Positions 36,916 through 49,367 of a stretch of DNA of 64,000 nucleotides are shown here, piece by piece. The stretch is from Candidatus Nanopelagicales bacterium (GTDB lineage Bacteria; Actinomycetota; Actinomycetes; S36-B12; CAIYMF01). A program made the position numbers and the translations under genes. Every line of letters begins with the position of its first letter. The first letter of the stretch is position 1. The notes beneath the pieces are model-generated. The model saw only the letters and a program-made list of their open reading frames with translations, made no database searches and was not told where the DNA came from. Location of the stretch: contig JAFIHG010000047.1 in the NCBI GenBank assembly GCA_017848795.1, positions 62,001 to 126,000 on the forward strand, in the 5' to 3' direction.

Positions 36916-37659
36916 ATGGGCCGTCGAACCGTGTTGCTCGTCGCCGCACTGCTCGTCGCAGCGCTCGGCACCGTCGCCGTCTTCCTGTACGCGCAGAACG
37001 CCAAGACCCAAGCGGCGGCCGGCCAAGACCTGGTCAAGGTGCTCGTCGCCAAGTCGGCGATCAGCGCCGGGACCACCGGGGCCGACGCGTCCGCCAACGG
37101 CACGTTCCAGGAGACGACGGTGCGCGCCACCGACGTGGCCCCGGGCGCGCTCTCGGACGTGACGCCGATCGCCGGACTCGTCGCGACCATCCCGATCTTT
37201 CCGGGCCAGCAGATCATCTCCCAGCAGTGGGGGACGGAAGCGGCAACCAGCGGCCTGACCTTCCCGGCCGGCACCGTGGCGATGTCGGTGCAGCTCGGTG
37301 ACCCGCAGCGGGTCGCGGGGTTCGTGTCGCCGGGCTCCACGATCGCGATCATGGCGAGCGGGACCGACACGAAGTCCCAGCAGCCGTTCACCCGCACCCT
37401 GCTGGCCGACGTGCCGGTCGTCGCGGTCGGCCCCACGACCGTGGTGTCCAAGACGACCAACACCACCAACGATGGCGGGCAGGCGACGAACACGGAGCAG
37501 ATCCCGACCGCGATCCTCACGCTCGGAGTGACGCAGGCCCAGGCCGAGAAGATCGTCTTCGCGCAGCAGGGCGGGGAGCTCTACCTGGTCCTGATGAACA
37601 AGGACTCCAAGGTCCAGGCCGGCTCCGCCGGGGTCACAGGCGACAACCTGTTCAGGTGA
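36916..37659 (+). CDS. cpaB: Flp pilus assembly protein CpaB (RcpC)
   Basis: A 247-residue protein with one N-terminal membrane helix (VLLVAALLVAALGTVAVFLYAQ) and a SAF-like domain (VKVLVAKSAISAGTTGADASANGTFQETTV, about 42-110). The RcpC domain follows (TFPAGTVAMSVQLGDPQRVAGFVSPGSTIAIMAS). CpaB/RcpC is an envelope component of Tad pili; in Gram-negatives it aids the secretin, while its role in Gram-positive actinobacteria is unclear. The ATG at 36916 follows GCAAGGAA by 4 nt and opens a five-gene run of tad genes. Confidence 0.88.
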   Translation: MGRRTVLLVAALLVAALGTVAVFLYAQNAKTQAAAGQDLVKVLVAKSAISAGTTGADASANGTFQETTVRATDVAPGALSDVTPIAGLVATIPIFPGQQIISQQWGTEAATSGLTFPAGTVAMSVQLGDPQRVAGFVSPGSTIAIMASGTDTKSQQPFTRTLLADVPVVAVGPTTVVSKTTNTTNDGGQATNTEQIPTAILTLGVTQAQAEKIVFAQQGGELYLVLMNKDSKVQAGSAGVTGDNLFR

Positions 37660-37707: not shown

Positions 37708-38898
37708 ATGACCGCGATCCTGGAGTTCGACCCGGCAGGCGCAGAGTCGATCCGCAGCGCGCTCGGGCCCGACGCGATCGTGGTGCCGAGCCTGCGCGAG
37801 CTGCGCGAGCACCTCGACGTCGACCTGTTCGAGGACTGCGTGGTACTCGGGCCGAGCGTCGACCAGATCGACGCCGACGCGCTCGCCGAGGACCTGCGGA
37901 TCACCCGGCCCACGCTCGGTGTCGTGCTGGTGCGCCAGCGCATCGACACCGCCGTGCTCAGCGACGCGCTGCGCGCCGGGATCCGGGAGGTCGTACAAGA
38001 ACGTGACCTGTCGGGCATCGCGAACGCCGTCCGGCACATCAAGGAGGTCGCGTCGCGCCAGCGCAGCCGGCTCGGCGAGGGCGGCGGCGAGGGGCCGCGC
38101 GAGCGGCGCGCGCGTCTCGTGACCGTGTTCTCCGCCAAGGGCGGCTGCGGCAAGACGACGCTGGCGACGAACCTGGCGGCACTGCTCGCCACCAGCAACA
38201 GAGGCACGGTCGCGCTCGTCGATCTGGACCTGTCGTTCGGCGACGTCGGCATCGCGCTGCAGCTGTTCCCCACCCACACCCTCGCCGATGCGGTCGCCAT
38301 GGGCATCGATCTGGACGAGCCCGGCCTCAAGTCGCTGCTGACACCCCACCGCTCCGGGCTGCAGGCACTCGTCGCGCCGTTGGAGCCGAGCAGTGCCGAG
38401 ACGATCACGACCGAGCTGGTCGTGCGGGTCCTCGATCTGCTGGCCGAGGAGTTCGACTACGTCGTCATCGACACCCCGCCGGCGCTCGACGACCACGTCC
38501 TGGCGGCCTTCGACAAGTCCGACCTGGTCGCGGTCATGGCGACCCTGGACATCCCGGCGCTCAAGAACCTCAAACTCACGCTGGAGACGCTCGAGCTGAT
38601 CTCGTTCCCGCGCGAGCGGCTCGCCGTCGTGCTCAACCGCGCCGATTCCAAGGTCGGCCTGGCGATCGGCGAGGTCGAGAAGACCCTCAAGGCGCCGATC
38701 GTCGCCCAGATCCCGTCGAGCCGGGACGTTCCTGCCTCCACCAACCGTGGGGTACCCCTCACCACGGACGATCCGAAGAACCCAGTGTCCGTGGCGATCC
38801 GCCAGTTCATGGAGCAAGTCGTCGTGCCCTCCGAGAAGGACGCGATCCCGACCGAGATGCGTTCGGACCGCCGCGGCGGCCGACGGTGGAAGAGGTAG
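37708..38898 (+). CDS. cpaE: CpaE/TadZ-like pilus localisation ATPase
   Basis: A 396-residue protein with an N-terminal receiver-like domain (about 1-120) and a MinD/ParA-type ATPase. The deviant Walker A VFSAKGGCGKTTLATNLA (about 139-156) has the signature first lysine, VALVDLDLSFGDVGI follows, and DYVVIDTPPALDDHVLAA is Walker B. TadZ/CpaE proteins position the pilus machine at a cell pole. The receiver-like part lacks an obvious phosphoacceptor site. The C-terminus is basic (RSDRRGGRRWKR). The tadA start follows immediately. Confidence 0.88.
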   Translation: MTAILEFDPAGAESIRSALGPDAIVVPSLRELREHLDVDLFEDCVVLGPSVDQIDADALAEDLRITRPTLGVVLVRQRIDTAVLSDALRAGIREVVQERDLSGIANAVRHIKEVASRQRSRLGEGGGEGPRERRARLVTVFSAKGGCGKTTLATNLAALLATSNRGTVALVDLDLSFGDVGIALQLFPTHTLADAVAMGIDLDEPGLKSLLTPHRSGLQALVAPLEPSSAETITTELVVRVLDLLAEEFDYVVIDTPPALDDHVLAAFDKSDLVAVMATLDIPALKNLKLTLETLELISFPRERLAVVLNRADSKVGLAIGEVEKTLKAPIVAQIPSSRDVPASTNRGVPLTTDDPKNPVSVAIRQFMEQVVVPSEKDAIPTEMRSDRRGGRRWKR

Positions 38899-38900
38899 CC

Positions 38901-40283
38901 ATGAGCCTGACCGACCGGCTCGCCGAGGCGCGCCGTCAGCGCGGCGACGCGCCCGCGCACCCCACGTCGTCCGCACGGGGACTCGCCACCCGCAGCGCCG
39001 AACCGAACGCGCTCACCGACCTCAAGCGGGCCGTGCACGCGTCGCTGCTGGAAAGTCTCGGGCCGCAGCTGTACGACAACCGGCTCACCGAGGACGAGCT
39101 CGAGGCGAAGGTCCGCAGCACGCTCCAGCTGGTGCTGACGCAGTCGGAGACTCCGATGACCGTCACCGACCGCGCCAAGCTGACGCAGGACATCGCCGAC
39201 GACATCCTCGGCTACGGGCCGCTCGAGCCGCTGCTGCGCGACCCCGACATCACCGAGATCATGGTCAATGGTCCGTGGACCGTCTACGTGGAGCGGGCCG
39301 GACGCATCGAGACCGCTCCCGCCCGGTTCGCCGACGAGAGCCACCTGCGGCGCACCATCGACAAGATCGTGGCGCGCATCGGTCGCCGCGTCGACGAGGC
39401 CTCCCCGATGGTCGACGCCCGGTTGCCCGACGGGTCCCGCGTCAACGCCATCGTCCCGCCGCTCGCGATCGACGGCGCGACGCTGACGATCCGCAAGTTC
39501 GCGACCGAGCCGTACGAGACCGAGGACCTGGTCACTTTCGGCACCCTCACCACCCCTGTCGCATCGTTCCTCGACGCGTGCGTACGGGCCCGGTTGAACA
39601 TCATGGTGTCCGGCGGCACCGGCGCCGGGAAGACGACGACGCTGAACGTGTTGAGCTCATTCATCCCGCGCACCGAGCGGATCATCACGATCGAGGACGC
39701 GGCCGAGCTGCAGCTGCGCCAGGAGCACGTGGTCCGCCTCGAGTCCCGTCCGCCGAACATCGAAGGACGCGGCGAGGTCACCATCCGCGACCTGGTGCGC
39801 AACGCGCTGCGCATGCGACCGGACCGCATCGTCGTCGGCGAGGTGCGTGACGCCGCCGCGCTGGACATGTTGCAAGCGATGAACACCGGGCACGACGGGT
39901 CGATCTGCACGGCACACGCCAACGGCCCGCGCGACACCCTCGCCCGGATCGAGACGATGGTCCTGATGGCAGGCGCCGACCTGCCGCTGCGCGCGATCCG
40001 GGAGCAGCTGGCGAGCGCTCTCGACCTGATCGTGCACCAGACCCGGTTCCGCGACGGTTCGCGCCGCATCACCCATGTCACCGAGGTCGTCGGGATGGAA
40101 GGTGAGGTCATCACCCTGCAGGATCTGTTCCTGTTCGACCACAAGGCCGGCTACGACCCCAACGGCCGCGCGCTCGGCCAGCTGAAGTCCACGGGCCTGC
40201 GCCCGAAGTTCCTCGACCGGTTCGCCGAGCAGAACGTCGAGGTCGACCCGACCTTGTTCGCGTTCGAGCGGTTCGGAGTCTGA
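38901..40283 (+). CDS. tadA: Flp pilus secretion ATPase TadA (CpaF)
   Basis: A 460-residue hexameric motor ATPase that powers Tad pilus assembly. Landmarks are GYGPLEPLLRDPDITEIMVNGP (about 103-124), Walker A SGGTGAGKTTTLN (about 236-248), the Asp box ITIEDAAELQL, the Walker B and His boxes RPDRIVVGEVRDAAALDMLQAMNTGHDGS and the arginine finger region. The ATG at 38901 follows AAGAGGTAG by 2-3 nt; a GTG at 38886 is possible but less likely. It lies between cpaE and the VWA-TadB gene with 3-bp spacing to the latter. Confidence 0.94.
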   Translation: MSLTDRLAEARRQRGDAPAHPTSSARGLATRSAEPNALTDLKRAVHASLLESLGPQLYDNRLTEDELEAKVRSTLQLVLTQSETPMTVTDRAKLTQDIADDILGYGPLEPLLRDPDITEIMVNGPWTVYVERAGRIETAPARFADESHLRRTIDKIVARIGRRVDEASPMVDARLPDGSRVNAIVPPLAIDGATLTIRKFATEPYETEDLVTFGTLTTPVASFLDACVRARLNIMVSGGTGAGKTTTLNVLSSFIPRTERIITIEDAAELQLRQEHVVRLESRPPNIEGRGEVTIRDLVRNALRMRPDRIVVGEVRDAAALDMLQAMNTGHDGSICTAHANGPRDTLARIETMVLMAGADLPLRAIREQLASALDLIVHQTRFRDGSRRITHVTEVVGMEGEVITLQDLFLFDHKAGYDPNGRALGQLKSTGLRPKFLDRFAEQNVEVDPTLFAFERFGV

Positions 40284-40286
40284 CCG

Positions 40287-42326
40287 ATGCCGATGTCGCT
40301 ACCCCCGCGGCCCCGCCGACCAGCCGCCGGGCCGCCACTCCGGCGCACCGCCCGGCGGGCGGGCCGACGTGGCTTCGGCCTCGCGTCCGCCGCCGCAACA
40401 CTCCTCGTGCTGAGCGTCGTGAGCGTCGCACCGGCTCATGCGGCGAGCGGTCGGATCGACCGGATCGAGGGTGGCGATCCGGGTCGACTGTCGGTCGTGT
40501 TCGGCGCCTCCGGGCTGCCTGGAGGGACCACGATCGACCCGGCCACGGTGACGGTGACGGTCGGCGGGGAGCAGGTGAGGGCGAGCGCCGGACGGTTCGG
40601 GGACCCGACGGCCGCGGTACGCCGCTCCGCGATGCTGGTCATCGACACCAGCGGCAGCATGCAAGGCGCTGGACTCGCCGGCGCGAAGCGGGCCGCCGAG
40701 GCGTTCCTGTCGAACGTGCCACCGGACGTCGCGGTCGGGCTCGTCACGTTCGCGCAGACCGCGCGGGTGGCGAGCGCACCGACCACCGATCGGGCCAGCG
40801 TCCGTGATGCGGTAGCCGCGTTGACCGCGGGACGGCGGACGGCGCTGTACGACGGCGTCGTGCTCGCTGCAGCAGCGCTGGGCACCGACGGATCGCGTGG
40901 GATCGTGCTGCTCTCGGACGGCAACGACACCGCGAGCAAGGCCACCCTGGCCCAGGCGAGCGATGCCGTGAGCTCGGCGAACGTGCGCCTGGACGCGGTG
41001 TCGCTGGGCAGGGCGCAGCAGCAGCGGTCCAGCGCGCTCACCAGCCTCACGGCCGCCGGAGACGGCAGGGTCGTACCTGTCGCCGCACCGGGCCGGCTCA
41101 CCGCCGCTTTCCGTTCGGCCGCAGCCGCGATCGCCAGCCAGGTCCTCGTCACAGCGGACGTACCGCCCGCGATGGCCGGCACCTCACGGACGGTCGTCGT
41201 GAGCGCGAAGGCTGGCGGGGAGCCGATCACCGACCAGGTCGCCGCGCTGCTGCCGACGTCCTCGACCGCGTCGCCGGGCACGGCGCCGCACTACGGCCCG
41301 GTGCCGGTCACGACGGCCTCGTCGATCACGTCGGCTCCTTGGTTCCTACCGGCCGCCGTCGGCGCCGTGTCGATCGGCCTGCTGGTGCTGCTGCTTGTGG
41401 CATTCCTCGGACCACGGCGCGACAGCGAGTCCGGCCGGATCGGGCGACGGCTGGGCCGGTACTCCCTGGCGGCACGGGACACCGGCAGCGTCTCGAGCAG
41501 CGCACCGGCCACCCCCGCCAGTGGGCAGGTCGCCCGGTCGGCGATGCAACTGGCCGACCGCGTCGTGCAGAAGCGGGACCTGGACAACTCGTTGGGAACC
41601 CGCCTGGACGCCGCCGGAGTTCCCCTGCGGCCGGCGGAGTGGATGCTGATCCACATCGGCGCACCCATCGCGCTCGGGCTCGCACTGATGCTGCTCACCG
41701 ACTTCTCGGTGCTCGCCGCGCTCCTGGGCGTCGTGATCGGTGTCGTCGTGCCGTTCGGCTACCTGTCCATCAAGGAGACCCGGCGCAAGGCCGCCTTCTC
41801 CGCCCAGCTGGCCGACACCCTGCAGCTGCTCGCCGGCAGCCTGTCGGCGGGCTACTCGCTGCCCCAGGCCGTCGACGTCGTCGTCCGGGAGGCCGCGCCG
41901 CCGATGAGCGCCGAACTGAACCGGGCGCTCGTGGAGACCCGGCTCGGCGTCCCGCTGGAGGACGCTCTCGAAGCGGTCGCCACGCGCATGAACAACGTGG
42001 ACCTCTCGTGGGTCGTCATGGCGATCAAGATCCAGCGCGAGGTCGGTGGCAACCTCGCGGAGGTGCTGACCAACGTCGCGGCCACGCTGCGCGAACGGGA
42101 ACGGCTGCGCCGGCAGGTGCAGGTGCTCTCCGCGGAGGGCCGGCTCTCGGCCGGCATCCTGTTCGGTCTGCCGTTGGTGTTCATCGTGTACCTGATGCTC
42201 GTACGTCCCGAGTACATCGCCCAGCTGATCACCGATCCGCTAGGCATCGTCATGGCTGTCGTCGGTGCTGCGCTGCTCGTCGCCGGCGGATTCTGGCTGC
42301 GCAAGGTCGTCAGGGTGGAGGTGTGA
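40287..42326 (+). CDS. tadB: von Willebrand A domain fused to a TadB-type (T2SSF) membrane protein
   Basis: A 679-residue fusion. A cleavable-looking signal sequence ends at AHA (residue 52). A VWA domain follows (about 110-290) with an intact MIDAS start DTSGSM (Asp120, Ser122, Ser124) and LLSDGND. After a linker a membrane helix lies near 352-372, then a cytoplasmic stretch and the TadB/GspF domain (about 445-679) with AQLADTLQLLAGSLSAGYSLPQA and membrane helices. TadB forms the inner-membrane platform of the pilus motor. The extracellular VWA module could bind a metal-dependent ligand at the pilus base. The signal must act as an anchor or be cleaved; topology is inferred. Confidence 0.9.
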   Translation: MPMSLPPRPRRPAAGPPLRRTARRAGRRGFGLASAAATLLVLSVVSVAPAHAASGRIDRIEGGDPGRLSVVFGASGLPGGTTIDPATVTVTVGGEQVRASAGRFGDPTAAVRRSAMLVIDTSGSMQGAGLAGAKRAAEAFLSNVPPDVAVGLVTFAQTARVASAPTTDRASVRDAVAALTAGRRTALYDGVVLAAAALGTDGSRGIVLLSDGNDTASKATLAQASDAVSSANVRLDAVSLGRAQQQRSSALTSLTAAGDGRVVPVAAPGRLTAAFRSAAAAIASQVLVTADVPPAMAGTSRTVVVSAKAGGEPITDQVAALLPTSSTASPGTAPHYGPVPVTTASSITSAPWFLPAAVGAVSIGLLVLLLVAFLGPRRDSESGRIGRRLGRYSLAARDTGSVSSSAPATPASGQVARSAMQLADRVVQKRDLDNSLGTRLDAAGVPLRPAEWMLIHIGAPIALGLALMLLTDFSVLAALLGVVIGVVVPFGYLSIKETRRKAAFSAQLADTLQLLAGSLSAGYSLPQAVDVVVREAAPPMSAELNRALVETRLGVPLEDALEAVATRMNNVDLSWVVMAIKIQREVGGNLAEVLTNVAATLRERERLRRQVQVLSAEGRLSAGILFGLPLVFIVYLMLVRPEYIAQLITDPLGIVMAVVGAALLVAGGFWLRKVVRVEV

Positions 42327-42327
42327 G

Positions 42328-43260
42328 ATGACCGAAACCGTCCTGCTCACCGGTCTTGCGGCCGTTTTCGTCGGCGTCTTCGGCGCCCTCGCCGTGCTCG
42401 CATTCTCGGGAGCCGAACGCCGCGGCGTGGCGCGCTCGCTCGCGGCCGTCGAGGCGATCAAGGCCGGGCCGAAGCCGATGGCGAGCGAGCTCGACCGGCC
42501 GTTCCGCGAGCGGGTGACCGCGCCCGCTTTCGCCCGGCTCGTCGGCTGGGGACGGCGCCTCACCCCGGTCGGCAGGACCGAGCGGTTGCGTCACAAGTTG
42601 GACGTCGCCGGCAACCCTGCAGGCTGGGACGTCGACCGGGTGCTCGCGTTCAAGATGCTGGGGCTGCTCGTCGGCGGTGCTGCCGGCGTTGTTGTCCCGC
42701 TGTTGTTCGGCAACGTGCTGGCCGCGCTCGTGCTCGGAATCGGGTTGGCGCTGCTCGGTTTCTACCTACCCGACATCGTCCTGTACCAGGTCGGCTACAA
42801 CCGTGCCGAACGCGTGCGGCGCGAGCTGCCGGACGCCCTCGACATGCTGGTGATCTCGGTCGAAGCCGGTCTCGGCTTCGACGCCGCGTTGGCGCAGGTC
42901 GCCCGCAACACGTCCGGCCCGCTCGCCGAAGAGTTCTTCCGGGTGCTGCAGGAGATGCAGATCGGCACCGGACGCAGTGACGCGATGCGCGCTCTCGGCG
43001 AGCGCAGCAACGTGGCCGAGCTGCGCGGCTTCGTCACCTCGATGGTGCAAGCCGACTCCTTCGGCATCCCCGTCGCGAACGTGCTGCGGGTGCAGGCGAA
43101 GGAGATGCGCATCAAACGTTCGCAGCGCGCGGAGGAACTCGCCCAGAAGGTCCCGGTGAAGATCCTCTTCCCCTTGATCTTCTGCATCCTGCCGGCGTTG
43201 TTCGTCGTGATCGTGGGGCCGGCTGCGATCCAGATCGTGCGCTCCTTCTCCCACCTGTAG
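42328..43260 (+). CDS. tadC: Tad pilus inner-membrane protein TadC
   Basis: A 310-residue T2SSF-family protein with an N-terminal helix, two central helices (about 105-150) and two C-terminal helices (about 270-305). The family motif ELPDALDMLVISVEAGLGFDAALAQVA (about 167-193) and IQADSFGIPVANVLRVQA-like region are present. TadB and TadC together form the platform that TadA rotates. The ATG at 42328 has GTGGAGGTG upstream and begins 1 bp after the previous stop. It is the last forward gene before a reverse ATPase gene. Confidence 0.92.
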   Translation: MTETVLLTGLAAVFVGVFGALAVLAFSGAERRGVARSLAAVEAIKAGPKPMASELDRPFRERVTAPAFARLVGWGRRLTPVGRTERLRHKLDVAGNPAGWDVDRVLAFKMLGLLVGGAAGVVVPLLFGNVLAALVLGIGLALLGFYLPDIVLYQVGYNRAERVRRELPDALDMLVISVEAGLGFDAALAQVARNTSGPLAEEFFRVLQEMQIGTGRSDAMRALGERSNVAELRGFVTSMVQADSFGIPVANVLRVQAKEMRIKRSQRAEELAQKVPVKILFPLIFCILPALFVVIVGPAAIQIVRSFSHL

Positions 43261-43299: not shown

Positions 43300-44310
43300 C
43301 TACTGCACGAAGACGCGTTCGTCGACGAGCTGCTCCTCGACGAGCGAGGCCTCTCGCTCGAAGCGCGCCTGCTCGAACCGTTTGCGCAGCTGCAGGTCGA
43401 CGCGCGCCATGCCGCCGCGGTTCTTCTCGATGGTGAGGACCGCGTAGGAGCGGAACCGTTCGGCGTTGGCGCCGCCGTACACCAAGTGGTGTCTGGCGAC
43501 GACGTCGTACTTCTCGTTCAGGACGAGAACCACATCGGCCTCGTAGGCGAGCGCCGAAGCCCCCCGGAAGTGCTCGGTGCGCAGACGGGTCCCCGCGGTG
43601 ATGCCGGTCGCGTCGCTCGCCGTGACCGCCAGCACCGGGACCGTCAGCCGAAGTGCGAGGTCCTTCAGCGCGCCTGCCACCCTCGCCATCCGCGCCTCTT
43701 CGTTCTCCCCGTCGTCGACGACCTTCTGGACGTAGTCGACGACGACGAGCGGTGCGCTGCGTTCGCCGTCGGCGACCGCGGTTGCTGCGGCCGCGATCGT
43801 CGCGACGTCCGTGTCCACCCCCGCGCGCAGCACGTGCAGCCGCTCGGCGTCCGCGGTCACCGCAGCGAGCGCTTCCGCCCCGCCGGGGCTCGCGGCAAGA
43901 CCGTCGGACAGCGACTGGCCGCTCCCGTCCCCCTCGAGCAGGCCGCGCACGCCCTTGAGCGGGACCGCGTCGACGCCGGCCCGCTCCCCCGCTTCCGCCG
44001 CGATGAGCCGCTCCAGCAGGTTGACGGGGTCGTGCTCGTAGCTGACGTACAGCACGGGATGGCCATCGCGGACGGCACGCCGGGCGATCTGCAACGCGAG
44101 CGTCGTCTTCCCCAGGCCCTGCCCGCCGGCGAGCAGCACCACCTCCCCGGGCCGCAGCCCACCCGAGAGGTACGTGTCGAGCGGGCTGAACCCGGTCGGC
44201 CAGGCCCGGGCGGCCGCGGCCGTCCCCAGACGTAGCAGGCGATCGATCTCGCCGAGCACTTCGCCGAGCCGGACCGTCGAGGGGGTCGTCACGCTCGGCT
44301 GCGTCGTCAT
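43300..44310 (-). CDS. DnaB-like RecA-fold ATPase inside the Tad locus
   Basis: A 336-residue protein resembling the C-terminal motor of replicative helicase DnaB without its N-terminal domain. It starts with TGFSPLDTYLSGGLRPGEVVLLAGGQGLGKTTLALQIARRA (Walker A near residues 61-70), then YVSYEHDPVNLLERLIAAEAG, Walker B APLVVVDYVQKVVDD, VTASDATGI and RGASALAYEADVVLVLNE. The last segment LTIEKNRGGMARVDLQLRKRFEQARF matches DnaB's C-terminal region. It might act in pilus biogenesis, DNA uptake or phage defence. It runs opposite to the tad genes, with 39 bp to tadC and 104 bp to the histidine kinase start. Confidence 0.82.
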   Translation of the reverse strand: MTTQPSVTTPSTVRLGEVLGEIDRLLRLGTAAAARAWPTGFSPLDTYLSGGLRPGEVVLLAGGQGLGKTTLALQIARRAVRDGHPVLYVSYEHDPVNLLERLIAAEAGERAGVDAVPLKGVRGLLEGDGSGQSLSDGLAASPGGAEALAAVTADAERLHVLRAGVDTDVATIAAAATAVADGERSAPLVVVDYVQKVVDDGENEEARMARVAGALKDLALRLTVPVLAVTASDATGITAGTRLRTEHFRGASALAYEADVVLVLNEKYDVVARHHLVYGGANAERFRSYAVLTIEKNRGGMARVDLQLRKRFEQARFEREASLVEEQLVDERVFVQ

Positions 44311-44414
44311 GGGCGCATCGAACCAGGATCCGACCCGGCGCGGAGGTGAGATCCGACATTCCGTACGCGGGGACCGGATGCGACCTTGGCCCGGAGTATG
44401 CGACCGTCCTGCTC

Positions 44415-46196
44415 ATGGCGCGTGGGTGGGACGACCTGTGGATCACGCGTTGGCGCCATTCGCTGGACTCGACCGACGCCATCCAGGTGATCGTGCGCGC
44501 CGGAGTGCTCGGGCTCTGCCTGCTGCTGTTCGCGCTCGACGACGTGTCCCGTCAGACCCGTCCCCCGCTCGCCGTGCTCATCGCGGTCGCGATCATGGCG
44601 AGCATCCCGCTGCCCCCGTCGCCGCTGACCCGGTTGCGCCCGCTCGGCGAGGCGGCGCTCGTCGCTGCGCTCATCGGTTCGAGCCAGCCGCTGGCTGATC
44701 CACTGCTGCCGTACCTGGTGGTTCCCGCACTCGGTGCCGGCCTGCTGCTCGGCGCGATCGGCGCGTGCTCCGCGGTGGCGGTGTCGGCGATCGTCATGGT
44801 CGCGGGGCGGTTCCTCGGCGGTGACCTGACCGACCGGATGGAGTCGACCCAGATCCTGCAGTGGCTCGGACTGGCGCTCGCCACCGGCCTCGTGGGCGCG
44901 TGGGCCCGCTCGGTCGGCCGGCGGGCCGGACTCGCGTCCGACACGTACGTCGCGGCGCACCGGCTGCTCACCCGGCTGCGGGATGTGGCCCGGGCGTTGC
45001 CGACCGGCCTGGACGAGGTCGCGCTCGCCCAGCAGGTGCTCACCCGTCTGGGTGAACGCATCGACTTCGAACAGGCCGCGTTGTACGCCATCACCGACGC
45101 CGGGCTGCTGCAACCGCTCGCCTTCGCGGGCAGTGACCGGGTGGACTGGGACCCGCAGCTGGACGAGGGCATCTGGGCGCGCGCGTGGAACAGCGGACGT
45201 CCCCACCAGCAGAACGGCATGTTCCGTTCTCCACGACGGGGCCACTCGGCGGTGCTCGCCCTGCGGCTCGGCGAACGCCGGATCGGGGTCATCGGGCTGG
45301 AGCGCAGCGGCGGTCAGTGGCCGCACCGCCAACTGGTCCGGGCCCAGGACCTCGCCGACGACGCCGCGCTGCGGATCGACACCGGTCAGCTGTTCAGCGA
45401 GGTGCGCGCGCTCGCGACCGTGGAGGAGCGGCGGCGGCTGGCCCGCGAGATCCACGACGGGGTCGCCCAGGAGATCGCCTCGCTCGGTTACCTCGTCGAC
45501 GACCTGCGCGCCCGTACCAAGGACGGGGAGGCCCGCGACGAGCTCGCGCATCTGCGTGACGAGCTGACCCGCGTCGTCACCGAGCTGCGGCTGTCGATCT
45601 TCGACCTGCGTACCGACGTGCAGCCGGCGACCGGGCTCGGTGCGGCGCTGTCGTCGTACGTCCGCAGCGTGGGCACCGGGTCCGGCCTCACCATCCACCT
45701 GGTGCTCGACGAGTCCGCGCACCGGCTGCCGATCGAGGCCGAGACCGAGCTGCTGCGGATCTCCCAGGAGGCGGTCACCAACGCGCGCAAGCACTCTCGC
45801 GCCAAGAACCTGTGGGTTACCTGCCGCGTAGACCCGCCGCGGGCGTTCCTGCGCGTCGCCGACGACGGTGCCGGGCTGGGCGCACCGCGGCAGGACAGCT
45901 ACGGGTTGGAGATCATGCGCGAACGGGCGGCCCGGCTCGGTGCCGCGCTCGCGGTACGGGCCCGGGTGGGCGGCGGGACCGTCGTCGAGGTGACCCTCGG
46001 CGCGGGCACCGCCGCCAGCAGCCCGCTCGGTGCCGCGATTCCGACGGCGTCGCTGACACCGGTGCCCGACGGCACCCGCCGCCGCCACGCGGCACCCGCA
46101 CCTGGCTGGGCGCGGCGCCTGCCCCCACTACGATCGCCCCAGGAAGGGACGCCCGGGTTGCCCCCCAACGCCGTGCCGACCGATCCGGGAGGGTGA
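44415..46196 (+). CDS. Membrane sensor histidine kinase, NarL-pair type, with GAF domain
   Basis: A 593-residue kinase. Residues 25-170 hold about five membrane segments. A GAF-like domain follows (about 200-325: LTRLGERIDFEQAALYAITDAGLLQPLAF). The dimerisation and phosphorylation segment VEERRRLAREIHDGVAQEIASLGYLVDDL carries the phospho-accepting His near residue 346, and a HATPase_c domain ends the core (EAVTNARKHSRAKNLWVT; VADDGAGL; YGLEIMRERAARLGA). The ATG at 44415 is preferred to the upstream GTG at 44346, which lies near a divergent promoter region. It overlaps its regulator gene's ribosome-binding site. Its place in the Tad locus suggests control of the pilins. Confidence 0.88.
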   Translation: MARGWDDLWITRWRHSLDSTDAIQVIVRAGVLGLCLLLFALDDVSRQTRPPLAVLIAVAIMASIPLPPSPLTRLRPLGEAALVAALIGSSQPLADPLLPYLVVPALGAGLLLGAIGACSAVAVSAIVMVAGRFLGGDLTDRMESTQILQWLGLALATGLVGAWARSVGRRAGLASDTYVAAHRLLTRLRDVARALPTGLDEVALAQQVLTRLGERIDFEQAALYAITDAGLLQPLAFAGSDRVDWDPQLDEGIWARAWNSGRPHQQNGMFRSPRRGHSAVLALRLGERRIGVIGLERSGGQWPHRQLVRAQDLADDAALRIDTGQLFSEVRALATVEERRRLAREIHDGVAQEIASLGYLVDDLRARTKDGEARDELAHLRDELTRVVTELRLSIFDLRTDVQPATGLGAALSSYVRSVGTGSGLTIHLVLDESAHRLPIEAETELLRISQEAVTNARKHSRAKNLWVTCRVDPPRAFLRVADDGAGLGAPRQDSYGLEIMRERAARLGAALAVRARVGGGTVVEVTLGAGTAASSPLGAAIPTASLTPVPDGTRRRHAAPAPGWARRLPPLRSPQEGTPGLPPNAVPTDPGG

Positions 46197-46198
46197 CG

Positions 46199-46840
46199 AT
46201 GGCGATCAGCGTGCTGCTCGTGGACGACCACGAGCTGATCCGGCAGGGCCTGCGCCGGGCGTTCGAACGCGACGGCGACTTCGAGGTCGTCGGCGAGGCC
46301 GGCACGCTGGCGGACGCCCGGCGGCTGCTCGCCCTCACCCGCCCGGACGTCGTGATCCTCGACATCCGCCTCCCGGACGGCAACGGCCTGGAGGCGGCGC
46401 GCAAGCTGCGCGCCGAACGCGACGAGCTCGGGATCGTGGTGCTGACGATGTACGCCGGGGACGAGCAGCTGTTCGAGGCGCTCGAGGCCGGCGCTTCGGC
46501 GTTCGTACCCAAGAACTCTCCGAGCGAGGACGTCGTCGCGGCGGCCCGGCACGCGGCGAGCTCGCCCCGTGCGTTCACCGCCAGCGACCTGGCCGAGGCG
46601 ATGAAGCGGCGGATGTCGCCCACCGGACCGCAACTCTCGCCGCGCGAGAAGGAAGTTCTCGGCCTGCTCGCCGACGGTCTCGGCGTCGCCCAGATCAGCC
46701 GCCAGCTCTACATCAGCGAGTCGACGACCAAGACCCACATCTCCAAGCTCTACGAGAAGCTCGGCGCCGGAAACCGCGCGCAGGCGCTCATGACCGCGCT
46801 GCGGCTCGGCCTGCTCAAGCGCGACGAACCGCAGGTCTGA
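46199..46840 (+). CDS. NarL/LuxR-family response regulator
   Basis: A 213-residue regulator with a receiver domain (about 1-120: VLLVDDHELIRQGLRRAF; phospho-Asp in PDVVILDIRLPDGNG near residue 55; switch Lys in AFVPKNSP) and a LuxR helix-turn-helix (LSPREKEVLGLLADGLGVAQISRQLYISESTTKTHISKLYEKLG). The ATG at 46199 has GGGAGGG 5 nt upstream, inside the end of the kinase gene, so the pair is translated together. The pilin gene lies 178 bp downstream and is a natural target. Confidence 0.92.
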   Translation: MAISVLLVDDHELIRQGLRRAFERDGDFEVVGEAGTLADARRLLALTRPDVVILDIRLPDGNGLEAARKLRAERDELGIVVLTMYAGDEQLFEALEAGASAFVPKNSPSEDVVAAARHAASSPRAFTASDLAEAMKRRMSPTGPQLSPREKEVLGLLADGLGVAQISRQLYISESTTKTHISKLYEKLGAGNRAQALMTALRLGLLKRDEPQV

Positions 46841-47366: not shown

Positions 47367-48899
47367 ATGTCGCAGCCGGGTCAACCCCTCGACTCGCGCG
47401 CGCCGGCGATCCCTCCCGTCGCGACACCGCCGGAGGAGGTCCCACCGCGACCGGGGCGGTTGGCGGCAGTGCTGGCGAACGTCCCGTTCGCTTTCGTGCC
47501 GGCCGTGGCCGTCATGGCGCTCGCGCTGGTGCTCGCACTGCGCCCGATCCTCGACATCGACCTCTACTGGCACCTGGTCGTCGGCGACGAGCTCCGCTCG
47601 GGCGTGCCGATCTCCCAGGCGGGACAGGGCTGGTCGTTCGCCCCGGTGCCCGACACCTGGGTCTCGAGCCAGTGGCTCGCCGAGATGACCCTCTCCTGGT
47701 TGAACACGCTCGGCGGATTCCCGGCGCTCGTGCTCTACCGCGTGCTGACGGCGCTCGCCGCCCTCGCCGTGACGGCATGGGTCACGCTGCGCGGGCGGCC
47801 GCTGCGGGCTGCGGTCATCCCGTTCGCGCTGGCCGCGACCGCGCTCGGATCCACCAGCCAGGAGCGCAGCCAGCAGCTGACCTACCTGCTCGCGCCGCTG
47901 GTCGGGTGGTGGGCGGAACGCCTGCTGCGCGAGGGACGGCTGCCGCGCTGGTGGATCGTGCTGCCGCTGACGGTCCTCTGGGCCAACTACCACGGGGGTT
48001 GGGTGCTGCTGCCGGCGGTGCTCTGCCTGACCGCGGTGGCGCGGTGGGTCACCCGCGGGGTTCGGGACCGGCCGGCATGGTCAGCGGTACTGCTGTCCGC
48101 GGCCACCTTCCTCGCCGCGATGGTGAGCCCGCTCGGTCCGGCGAACTCGTTGACCGCGTTGGCATTCTCACGGGCAGCGAGCTCGCAGATCGCCGAGTGG
48201 GGACGGGTGGCACTCTGGTCGGACCAGGGCTGGCAGCTGGGCGTGATCCTGCTGCTGGCGGTCCTCGCGTGGTGCTTCGGCCGTACCCGGATCCGTAAGT
48301 CCGACGCGGGTGAGGTCGTACTGGTCCTCGGCATGGTGACCTTCGGATTCCTCGCGTACCGGAACATCACACCCACGGTTCTGGTGCTCGCCCCGCTGCT
48401 CGCCGGCGTCCTTGCGCGGGCCCTCCCCGCACCGGCCCACCAGGGCCGGGCGATGCTCGGGCGTACCGCGTGGGCGATGGCGTTCGCCGGGGTCGTGGCG
48501 GGCGTCGTCCTCTGCTTCGTCCCGGTGCGGGATCTGCACCCGAAGGTCCCCGTCGAGCTCTACGCGCGCATCGGCGCTCACCCCGGGACCATGCGCGTGC
48601 TCGACACCTACAACGTCGCGGGACCGCTGCTCTGGTACGCCGGCGGCCCGGGCCAGGTCCAGCTGGCGATCGACGGGCGCACCGACCGGTACGGCGCGCC
48701 GTACATCGACCGCTACCTCGACACGCTGCTCGCCGCCCGCCCGGGGTGGGCGGCGATGCTCGCGGAGCTGCGGCCCGACGTGGCCGTGCTCTACTCCGGC
48801 GAGGCGCTCACCGGCGCGCTGGCGGCGAAACGCTGGCGCACGGTCGCCCAGGAGCGCGGCGTGGTCCTCATGGTCCCCCCGGATGCCCACGACTGGTGA
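47367..48899 (+). CDS. Large multi-pass membrane protein between the two pilin genes
   Basis: A 510-residue protein I cannot name with confidence. About ten hydrophobic segments are visible. The N-terminal motif LDIDLYWHLVVGDELRSGVPI (about 62-83), followed by WVSSQWLAEMTLSWL, resembles the first external loop of GT-C glycosyltransferases that use lipid-linked sugars; the C-terminal part (from about 390) is soluble and outside. It could glycosylate the pilins, since Flp pilins are often modified, but this rests on position and general shape. The ATG has GAGCAGGGG about 5 nt upstream. Confidence 0.7.
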   Translation: MSQPGQPLDSRAPAIPPVATPPEEVPPRPGRLAAVLANVPFAFVPAVAVMALALVLALRPILDIDLYWHLVVGDELRSGVPISQAGQGWSFAPVPDTWVSSQWLAEMTLSWLNTLGGFPALVLYRVLTALAALAVTAWVTLRGRPLRAAVIPFALAATALGSTSQERSQQLTYLLAPLVGWWAERLLREGRLPRWWIVLPLTVLWANYHGGWVLLPAVLCLTAVARWVTRGVRDRPAWSAVLLSAATFLAAMVSPLGPANSLTALAFSRAASSQIAEWGRVALWSDQGWQLGVILLLAVLAWCFGRTRIRKSDAGEVVLVLGMVTFGFLAYRNITPTVLVLAPLLAGVLARALPAPAHQGRAMLGRTAWAMAFAGVVAGVVLCFVPVRDLHPKVPVELYARIGAHPGTMRVLDTYNVAGPLLWYAGGPGQVQLAIDGRTDRYGAPYIDRYLDTLLAARPGWAAMLAELRPDVAVLYSGEALTGALAAKRWRTVAQERGVVLMVPPDAHDW

Positions 48900-49064
48900 C
48901 GCTGCGTCGCGAAACGCCTCCGGACCGCGCAGACGATCATCCGTTCGGCGGGGTGCGGATGACCGTCGGGACGATCTTCGCGTCCTGCCCCACCTGCCAC
49001 GCTCGTCCCAGATCCGCCCTCATCCGACGACTCGCACGACTGGTACTGCATCGCGGAGGTGACA

Positions 49065-49367
49065 GTGAGCCCGCGTCGCTTGCTCCTCGCGACCCGCGCA
49101 GCCGGGGGGCGCGCGCACGGTGGCTCAACGTCGCCGGCACGCATCCGCCGGGGCGGTGCCGAGCGCGGCACCTCGGCGGTCGAGTACGGCCTGCTCGTCG
49201 TCTCGATCGCGGCCGTCGTCACCGCGATCGTGTTCTCGGTCGGCGTCAAGCTCAAGGACACGCTCGGCGACACCTGCCGCTCCTTGACCACCGCGCAGAG
49301 CGACGCGAGCGGTCCCGGCGTCGCGAAACTGCGGCCCGTCGGTCACAGCACCGGCTGCAACCCCTGA
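49065..49367 (+). CDS. Second Flp-family type IVb pilin
   Basis: A 100-residue precursor with an unusually long basic leader (about 38 residues, ending RRGGAERG) before the cleavage site Gly/Thr and TSAVEYGLLVVSIAAVVTAIVFSVGVKL. The mature tail has two cysteines (DTCRSLTT and STGCNP), similar in layout to the first pilin. The GTG at 49065 has GCGGAGGTG 4 nt upstream; another GTG at 49059 falls inside that ribosome-binding site. It may be a minor pilin. It is transcribed from its own region or by read-through from the membrane-protein gene. Confidence 0.88.
   Translation: MSPRRLLLATRAAGGRAHGGSTSPARIRRGGAERGTSAVEYGLLVVSIAAVVTAIVFSVGVKLKDTLGDTCRSLTTAQSDASGPGVAKLRPVGHSTGCNP

Follow-up and report, generated by a model that had tools for sequence, protein, structure and literature searches.

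A DnaB-fold ATPase lacking the primase-binding domain is encoded at Tad pilus loci of Actinomycetota and may be an accessory component of the pilus motor

The Tad pilus is reported to descend from an archaeal Epd-like pilus, and both systems have two platform genes and then a motor ATPase and a secondary ATPase (PMC6668835). This secondary ATPase is TadZ in the case of Tad and FlaH in that of Epd. FlaH/ArlH is an ATP-binding protein of the RecA fold, which interacts with the motor ATPase ArlI and is presumed to be stimulatory in its ATP-bound state. FlaH/ArlH is hexameric when its interaction with the motor ATPase is strongest (PMC8978795, also for the preceding statement). The Tad pili of Caulobacter are both extended and retracted by a single motor ATPase, and how this is achieved is presented as an open question in PMC11300603. 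In a search of the open-licence literature, we found no account of a DnaB-fold protein as part of a Tad locus.

The locus described here lies within a window of 64,000 nucleotides (i.e. the whole stretch of DNA that was analysed), from an actinobacterial genome of 3.4 Mb assembled in 57 contigs. A gene for a DnaB-fold ATPase, designated DBL in this study, is located among the Tad genes of this window. The features of the locus, with their positions in the window, are listed below.

36916..37659, plus strand: RcpC/CpaB (Pfam RcpC, 70 bits; start set at an internal ATG)
37708..38898, plus strand: TadZ/CpaE-type ATPase (Pfam AAA_31/ParA; gene order conserved in related loci)
38886..40283, plus strand: TadA motor ATPase (T2SSE; Pfam), which served as the co-occurrence probe
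40287..42326, plus strand: vWA-TadB fusion (Pfam VWA_2 at residues 116-212, T2SSF at residues 512-637)
42325..43260, plus strand: TadC platform protein (T2SSF; Pfam), with the longest ORF running from 42265
43300..44310, minus strand: DBL, 336 aa, DnaB-fold ATPase lacking the N-terminal domain of DnaB (Pfam, alignment, fold prediction)
44346..46196, plus strand: sensor kinase (GAF, HisKA_3, HATPase_c; Pfam), whose true start may be located downstream
46199..46840, plus strand: LuxR-type response regulator (Pfam)
47367..48899, plus strand: multi-pass membrane protein, 510 aa (no Pfam match)
49059..49367, plus strand: Flp-type pilin (Flp_Fap, 27.9 bits, below the Pfam cut-off of 32.2)

In this arrangement DBL converges with tadC and diverges from the kinase gene. 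A reading made from the sequence alone (the sequence-only reading) had placed the ATPase between tadC and a sensor kinase, on the opposite strand, and the Pfam assignments agree with it (T2SSF in the ORF of 42265-43260 and HisKA_3 in that of 44346-46196, both on the plus strand). Homologues of the Flp-type pilin occupy the same place in related loci. The 510-aa membrane protein stands beside the pilin, and its homologues adjoin DBL in two other genomes (G178 and G193; L045 and L046); as a guess, it might be a pilin glycosyltransferase.

The DBL gene is a real ORF, with an ATG start and G+C fractions of 0.78, 0.48 and 0.91 at the three codon positions. The dN/dS values were 0.02-0.36 in 12 of the 13 orthologue pairs tried (the remaining pair was saturated), and on these ratios the gene is under purifying selection. 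No sigma-70-like site was found by a promoter scan, which is uninformative at high G+C content. The encoded protein matches DnaB_C (PF03796) with 79 bits over residues 38-313 (Pfam; cut-off 27), and this domain was matched by all 25 family members. The RecA domain is preceded by only ~37 residues; the DnaB N-terminal domain (PF00772) was absent from the Pfam result at E<=0.001 and from among the 25 of 30 matches listed at E<=1. The earlier description of a helicase-like ATPase with intact Walker motifs and without the primase-binding domain is thus borne out. The score against TIGR00665, the DnaB equivalog model, was 72.4 bits, i.e. below the curated cut-off of 385, and the KaiC Pfam match of the DBL protein of the window covers residues 38-101 only. 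A screen for defence systems gave one weak P-loop match (PADLOC mad8, 23.7 bits).

The fold of DBL was predicted with a mean pLDDT of 89.3 and a pTM of 0.88. A structural comparison with DnaB, KaiC and RadA, suggested by the sequence-only reading, was carried out. The top solved fold was DnaB with DNA (4esv_F; Z 31.9, 3.0 A over 274 residues), RadA with DNA (8rxc_C) gave Z 24.0 and KaiC Z ~22; no ArlH structure was present among the matches listed in this search, an absence that carries no weight. The structural alignment with DnaB starts at residue 8, so that helix 15-27 of DBL corresponds in position to the linker helix between the two domains of DnaB, the element that makes the ring.

A detailed inspection of the active site revealed that the Walker A motif (GQGLGKT, residues 62-69), the Walker B motif (VVVDYVQ, containing D192) and the "EH" that follows strand 2 are intact. 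Nine residues (K68, E92, H93, D192, D259, K267, E295, K296 and N297) are invariant in the 25 aligned orthologues, and position 69 is always T or S. R298 is conserved in 24 of the 25 and, together with K296, forms the probable arginine/lysine finger. At the position aligned to the motif-H3 glutamine of DnaB, 21 proteins have A, 3 have S and 1 has G; none has Q. In the loop that follows this motif, R242 is present in 24/25 proteins and R249 in 20/25, and these conserved arginines are compatible with DNA binding. The functions given here to the motif positions, that of the motif-H3 glutamine included, are those known from work on DnaB and RecA. Since the ATPase residues and the finger are kept and the glutamine is gone, the ATPase and the finger at the subunit interface seem to be preserved, and the element for DNA coupling seems to be altered. 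DBL has therefore probably retained its ATPase, with an altered helicase coupling and with the basic pore loop still in place.

Two described proteins of this fold group can be compared directly with DBL. The likeness to DnaB comprises a fold that extends over nearly the whole of DBL, including the linker-helix region, as well as the Walker motifs, the DYLQ motif and the K-x-R finger. DBL differs from DnaB in that it is without PF00772, scores under the TIGR00665 cut-off, does not have the H3 glutamine, and is linked to a pilus. With RadA/Sms it shares the DnaB-type RecA domain (8rxc_C, Z 24.0), but the zinc ribbon and the Lon-like C-terminal part of RadA/Sms are both missing from the Pfam result for DBL. 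The host genome also encodes a DnaB, which has the N-terminal domain and contains an intein, and a RadA, in which the zinc ribbon is present; both are located on other contigs, and DBL is therefore an additional, third protein of this fold group. In the true DnaB (L003, contig 15), the LAGLIDADG intein is placed directly after a DLRESG motif.

In order to determine the distribution of DBL, a profile built from 25 orthologues was searched over 396 genomes of Actinomycetota (the phylum sample). This search identified 20 members scoring at least 270 bits, while the next matches reached at most 107 bits and, in length and score, are what true DnaB proteins would be expected to give. Judged by these scores, DBL is a discrete family. 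A search of the order found it in 8 of 166 genomes, including that of the window (7 new), and a class sample in 18 of 296 (5 already known, 13 new), which gives 40 genomes (20 + 7 + 13); all of these counts apply within Actinomycetota. Two copies carry an in-frame stop, TAG in G217 and TGA in G337 (L024/L049 and L033, respectively), and the contig of G337 begins inside the gene; the stops are either decay or assembly errors.

The DnaB-type C-terminal domain, together with a best PHROG match to a DnaB-like replicative helicase (110 bits), might point to a stray or captured replication helicase, i.e. a phage or plasmid remnant that entered the locus by chance. We regard this as highly improbable. 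The gap between the 20 members of the phylum sample and the next matches argues against it, as do the purifying selection and the linkage to Tad genes in 27 genomes. The matches listed from viral contigs were DnaB-like relatives: there were at least 66 loci, of which 65 showed 23-31% identity and one was a 38-residue match at 47%. The sequence-only reading had seen no sign of a plasmid or phage nearby, and, consistently, a search of two collections of phage and plasmid records gave no record with a single match over 80% of DBL. The best phage match, MT839844.1 (L063), is an unannotated "Bacteriophage sp." contig from human faeces; it has dxr beside DBL, the same as genome G250, and we therefore read it as a probably mislabelled bacterial contig. 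As a general explanation of DBL, a phage or plasmid remnant is refuted by the conserved Tad linkage.

The neighbourhoods of DBL were mapped with the window proteins as queries. In 27 of the 40 genomes DBL is located within the Tad locus. It directly follows tadC on the same strand in 11 of these 27, and lies beside tadC on the opposite strand in 13, in some of which ~1 kb or one gene is found between them. In two loci (L047 and L054) it is placed upstream of cpaB, and in one (L046) tadC is ~5 kb away. In seven further genomes (G178, G217, G337, G464, G518, G580 and G608) a contig end occurs inside DBL or less than 1 kb from it; in G518, G580 and G608 the kinase-regulator pair is still present on the intact side. 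The remaining six genomes (G250 and five genomes of the group f14) carry DBL elsewhere, among dxr or ribosomal-protein genes. In G250 the neighbours are dxr, an M50 peptidase and GcpE. In the f14 genomes (L176-L180) DBL is found a few genes from rplL, rplA, rplK and nusG, the neighbours having been assigned by Pfam in L177 and by homology in L176 and L178-L180. The neighbours of the unlinked copies (L7/L12, L1, L11 and NusG; dxr, M50 peptidase and GcpE) give no functional hint. In all five f14 genomes the Tad genes stand in the order cpaB-tadZ-tadA-tadB-tadC-kinase-regulator, as in the window, with DBL missing from its place. Two DBL-bearing records beyond the 40 genomes, L009 (a 7-kb contig) and L063, show no Tad gene.

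In all 11 same-strand loci, the start of DBL falls between -4 and +28 nt from the tadC stop, when the start is taken as the nearest plausible start codon (several loci offer more than one; the start in L058, at +2, was read directly from the sequence). The junctions include a GTGA overlap (L055 and L032), TGATG (L053) and abutting genes (L048 and L051). DBL is operon-coupled to tadC in these 11 related loci. When the labels for strand and linkage were placed on the tree of DBL, a total of 6 changes sufficed, compared with a mean of 15.6 after shuffling; by label, the fewest changes are 6 for linkage on the opposite strand, 4 for linkage on the same strand and 2 for unlinked copies. DBL thus turns round in place and yet keeps its address, which is good evidence of functional coupling. 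We consider it very probable that DBL is tied to the Tad pilus.

The co-occurrence of DBL with TadA was analysed in the phylum sample, where a close TadA (E<=1e-145; tallied by hand) is present in 107 of the 396 genomes. It was found in 17 of the 20 DBL genomes and in 90 of the 376 others (Fisher p 4e-8, kinship ignored). The three DBL genomes without a close TadA (G193, G464 and G518) are all fragmented assemblies; in G193 DBL and tadC share one contig, and in G518 DBL is placed beside the kinase-regulator pair. All six genomes with an unlinked DBL have a close TadA. The genomic-context search with tadA and tadC that the sequence-only reading had called for thus found 27 of 40 genomes linked, seven cut by contig ends and six unlinked with a close TadA. 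Orthologues scattered without tad genes, or located in phage regions, were looked for and not seen.

Conversely, 90 of the 107 close-TadA genomes do not have DBL, which therefore does not belong to the core of the motor. In the family to which the window belongs, DBL was found in 8 of the 17 genomes searched, each with a close Tad locus. Two others (G004 and G009) have a close Tad locus on a contig that ends before the DBL position, and G013-G017 have neither a close TadA nor DBL. The TadA of G002 and G003 is 64% identical, and DBL was found neither at its place nor in a genome-wide search; here the kinase gene directly follows tadC, and the TadB match is without the vWA part.

This part of TadB distinguishes the loci more generally. 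TadB falls within the mapped neighbourhood in 25 of the linked loci, that of the window among them, and in each of these 25 it bears a vWA domain. The comparison group consisted of 80 of the 90 close-TadA genomes that lack DBL; an unbroken vWA-TadB match was obtained in 39 of them, and a 40th (G211) is cut. The difference between the two groups (Fisher p 6e-7, kinship ignored) was obtained with search tools that differ slightly between them. The fusion is also present in 4 of the 5 f14 Tad loci; in the other (L183) the match begins past the vWA part. Given 25/25 against 39/80, DBL is a marker for some of the Tad systems with vWA-TadB, and since about half of the 80 DBL-less genomes are without the fusion, this form of TadB appears to delimit a subtype of Tad. 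Over 20 loci, the pairwise distances of DBL correlate with those of TadA (Pearson 0.88) and TadC (0.87); the range against TadA, TadC, TadB and TadZ is 0.87-0.88, and among the Tad proteins themselves 0.92-0.95.

Genes of a histidine kinase and/or response regulator are located near DBL not only in the window but also in L037-L040, L042, L044, L054, L056, L169-L175 and L181. This proximity, together with the presence of KaiC in the fold list (Z 22), would fit a KaiC- or RadA-like regulator that acts with the neighbouring kinase and response regulator to control the expression or timing of tad, and not on the motor itself. Such a role is improbable in our view. DBL follows tadC in the 11 operon cases, in several of which no adjoining kinase-regulator homologue was found, and in the f14 loci the kinase-regulator pair stays beside tadC though DBL has moved away. 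Moreover, Pfam assigns neither a DNA-binding nor a sensor domain to DBL.

DBL might also be a DNA motor of Tad-dependent uptake, which would pull or unwind the incoming DNA or load recombination proteins. RadA, a DnaB-type helicase, does such work in pneumococcal transformation. The closest solved folds of DBL are those of DnaB and RadA with DNA (4esv_F and 8rxc_C, at the Z scores given above), and the arginines conserved in the loop after motif H3 accord with this role, against which stands the loss of the motif-H3 glutamine in all 25 proteins. Tad pili are needed for the transformation of Micrococcus luteus, but the system is reported as tadA-B-C-(flp)-E/F-G, and a helicase is named for neither of the two tad clusters of this species in the available part of the source (PMC4322843). 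ComEC (searched as PF03772) was found in 36 of the 40 DBL genomes (23/27 and 13/13), but it is about equally common in close-TadA genomes without DBL (69/80). ComEC was not found in four DBL genomes, all of which are multi-contig drafts, so that its absence is weak evidence. As ComEC is no commoner with DBL, DNA uptake gains no specific support, and we judge it rather unlikely to be the function of DBL. The sequence-only reading had proposed DNA uptake or another, undescribed pilus-linked process; the first gains nothing from the distribution of ComEC, and our results favour the second.

The reading that we prefer, to which we give nearly an even chance, is that DBL may be a dedicated accessory ATPase of the Tad pilus with vWA-TadB, modulating the TadA/TadBC motor in the manner of FlaH/ArlH. 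According to this model, DBL, a DnaB-type RecA domain that keeps the linker helix and lacks the primase-binding domain, would form a hexameric ring by means of this helix and the arginine/lysine finger, and this ring would bind and hydrolyse ATP. The ring would dock on the cytoplasmic TadA/TadB/TadC motor and would act as an ATP-dependent switch or a second ring, modulating motor extension, retraction or engagement. The mode of action is modelled on that of FlaH/ArlH on ArlI/ArlJ in archaea. In favour of this reading we count the coupling to tadC, the position of DBL among Tad genes in 27 of 40 genomes, its co-occurrence with a close TadA and with vWA-TadB, the correlated distances, the kept ATPase residues together with the lost motif-H3 glutamine, and the precedent of FlaH in the archaeal relatives. 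Against it stand the arginines conserved after motif H3, the 90 of 107 close-TadA genomes that lack DBL, the six displaced copies, the greater nearness to DnaB than to FlaH, and distance correlations slightly lower than those among the Tad proteins.

DBL and FlaH/ArlH are both RecA-fold ATPases whose genes adjoin those for the motor ATPase and the platform, in filaments that are evolutionarily related (PMC6668835 and PMC8978795). They differ in stock, DBL being of DnaB and not of KaiC origin. The place of DBL is equivalent to that of FlaH, and DBL comes in addition to TadZ. All 25 DBL proteins match DnaB (best E 1.2e-30) and, weakly, the FlaH model (best E 5.9e-5). DBL is thus far nearer to DnaB than to FlaH, which makes the ArlH parallel one of place and not of descent. 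A place equivalent to that of FlaH, filled from DnaB stock, leads us to propose a convergent recruitment. It is quite possible, although we suggest it tentatively, that Tad has convergently gained a FlaH/ArlH-like ring, i.e. a DnaB helicase minus the primase-binding domain and DNA coupling, which would be an ATP-driven switch of the TadA motor, or a second ring able to stack on it, in systems with vWA-TadB.

DBL shares its locus and operon with cpaB, tadZ, tadA, tadB and tadC, and these loci probably represent a Tad subtype with a third ATPase, for which the open-licence literature searched gave no description. Conserved across a large set of Tad systems, this additional ATPase of the ring type could serve as the motor switch or as a second motor. 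If DBL acts on DNA, it would be a missing piece of actinobacterial Tad-dependent DNA uptake. If it is ArlH-like, it would be a convergent return of a part that is owned by the archaeal relatives of Tad (PMC6668835).
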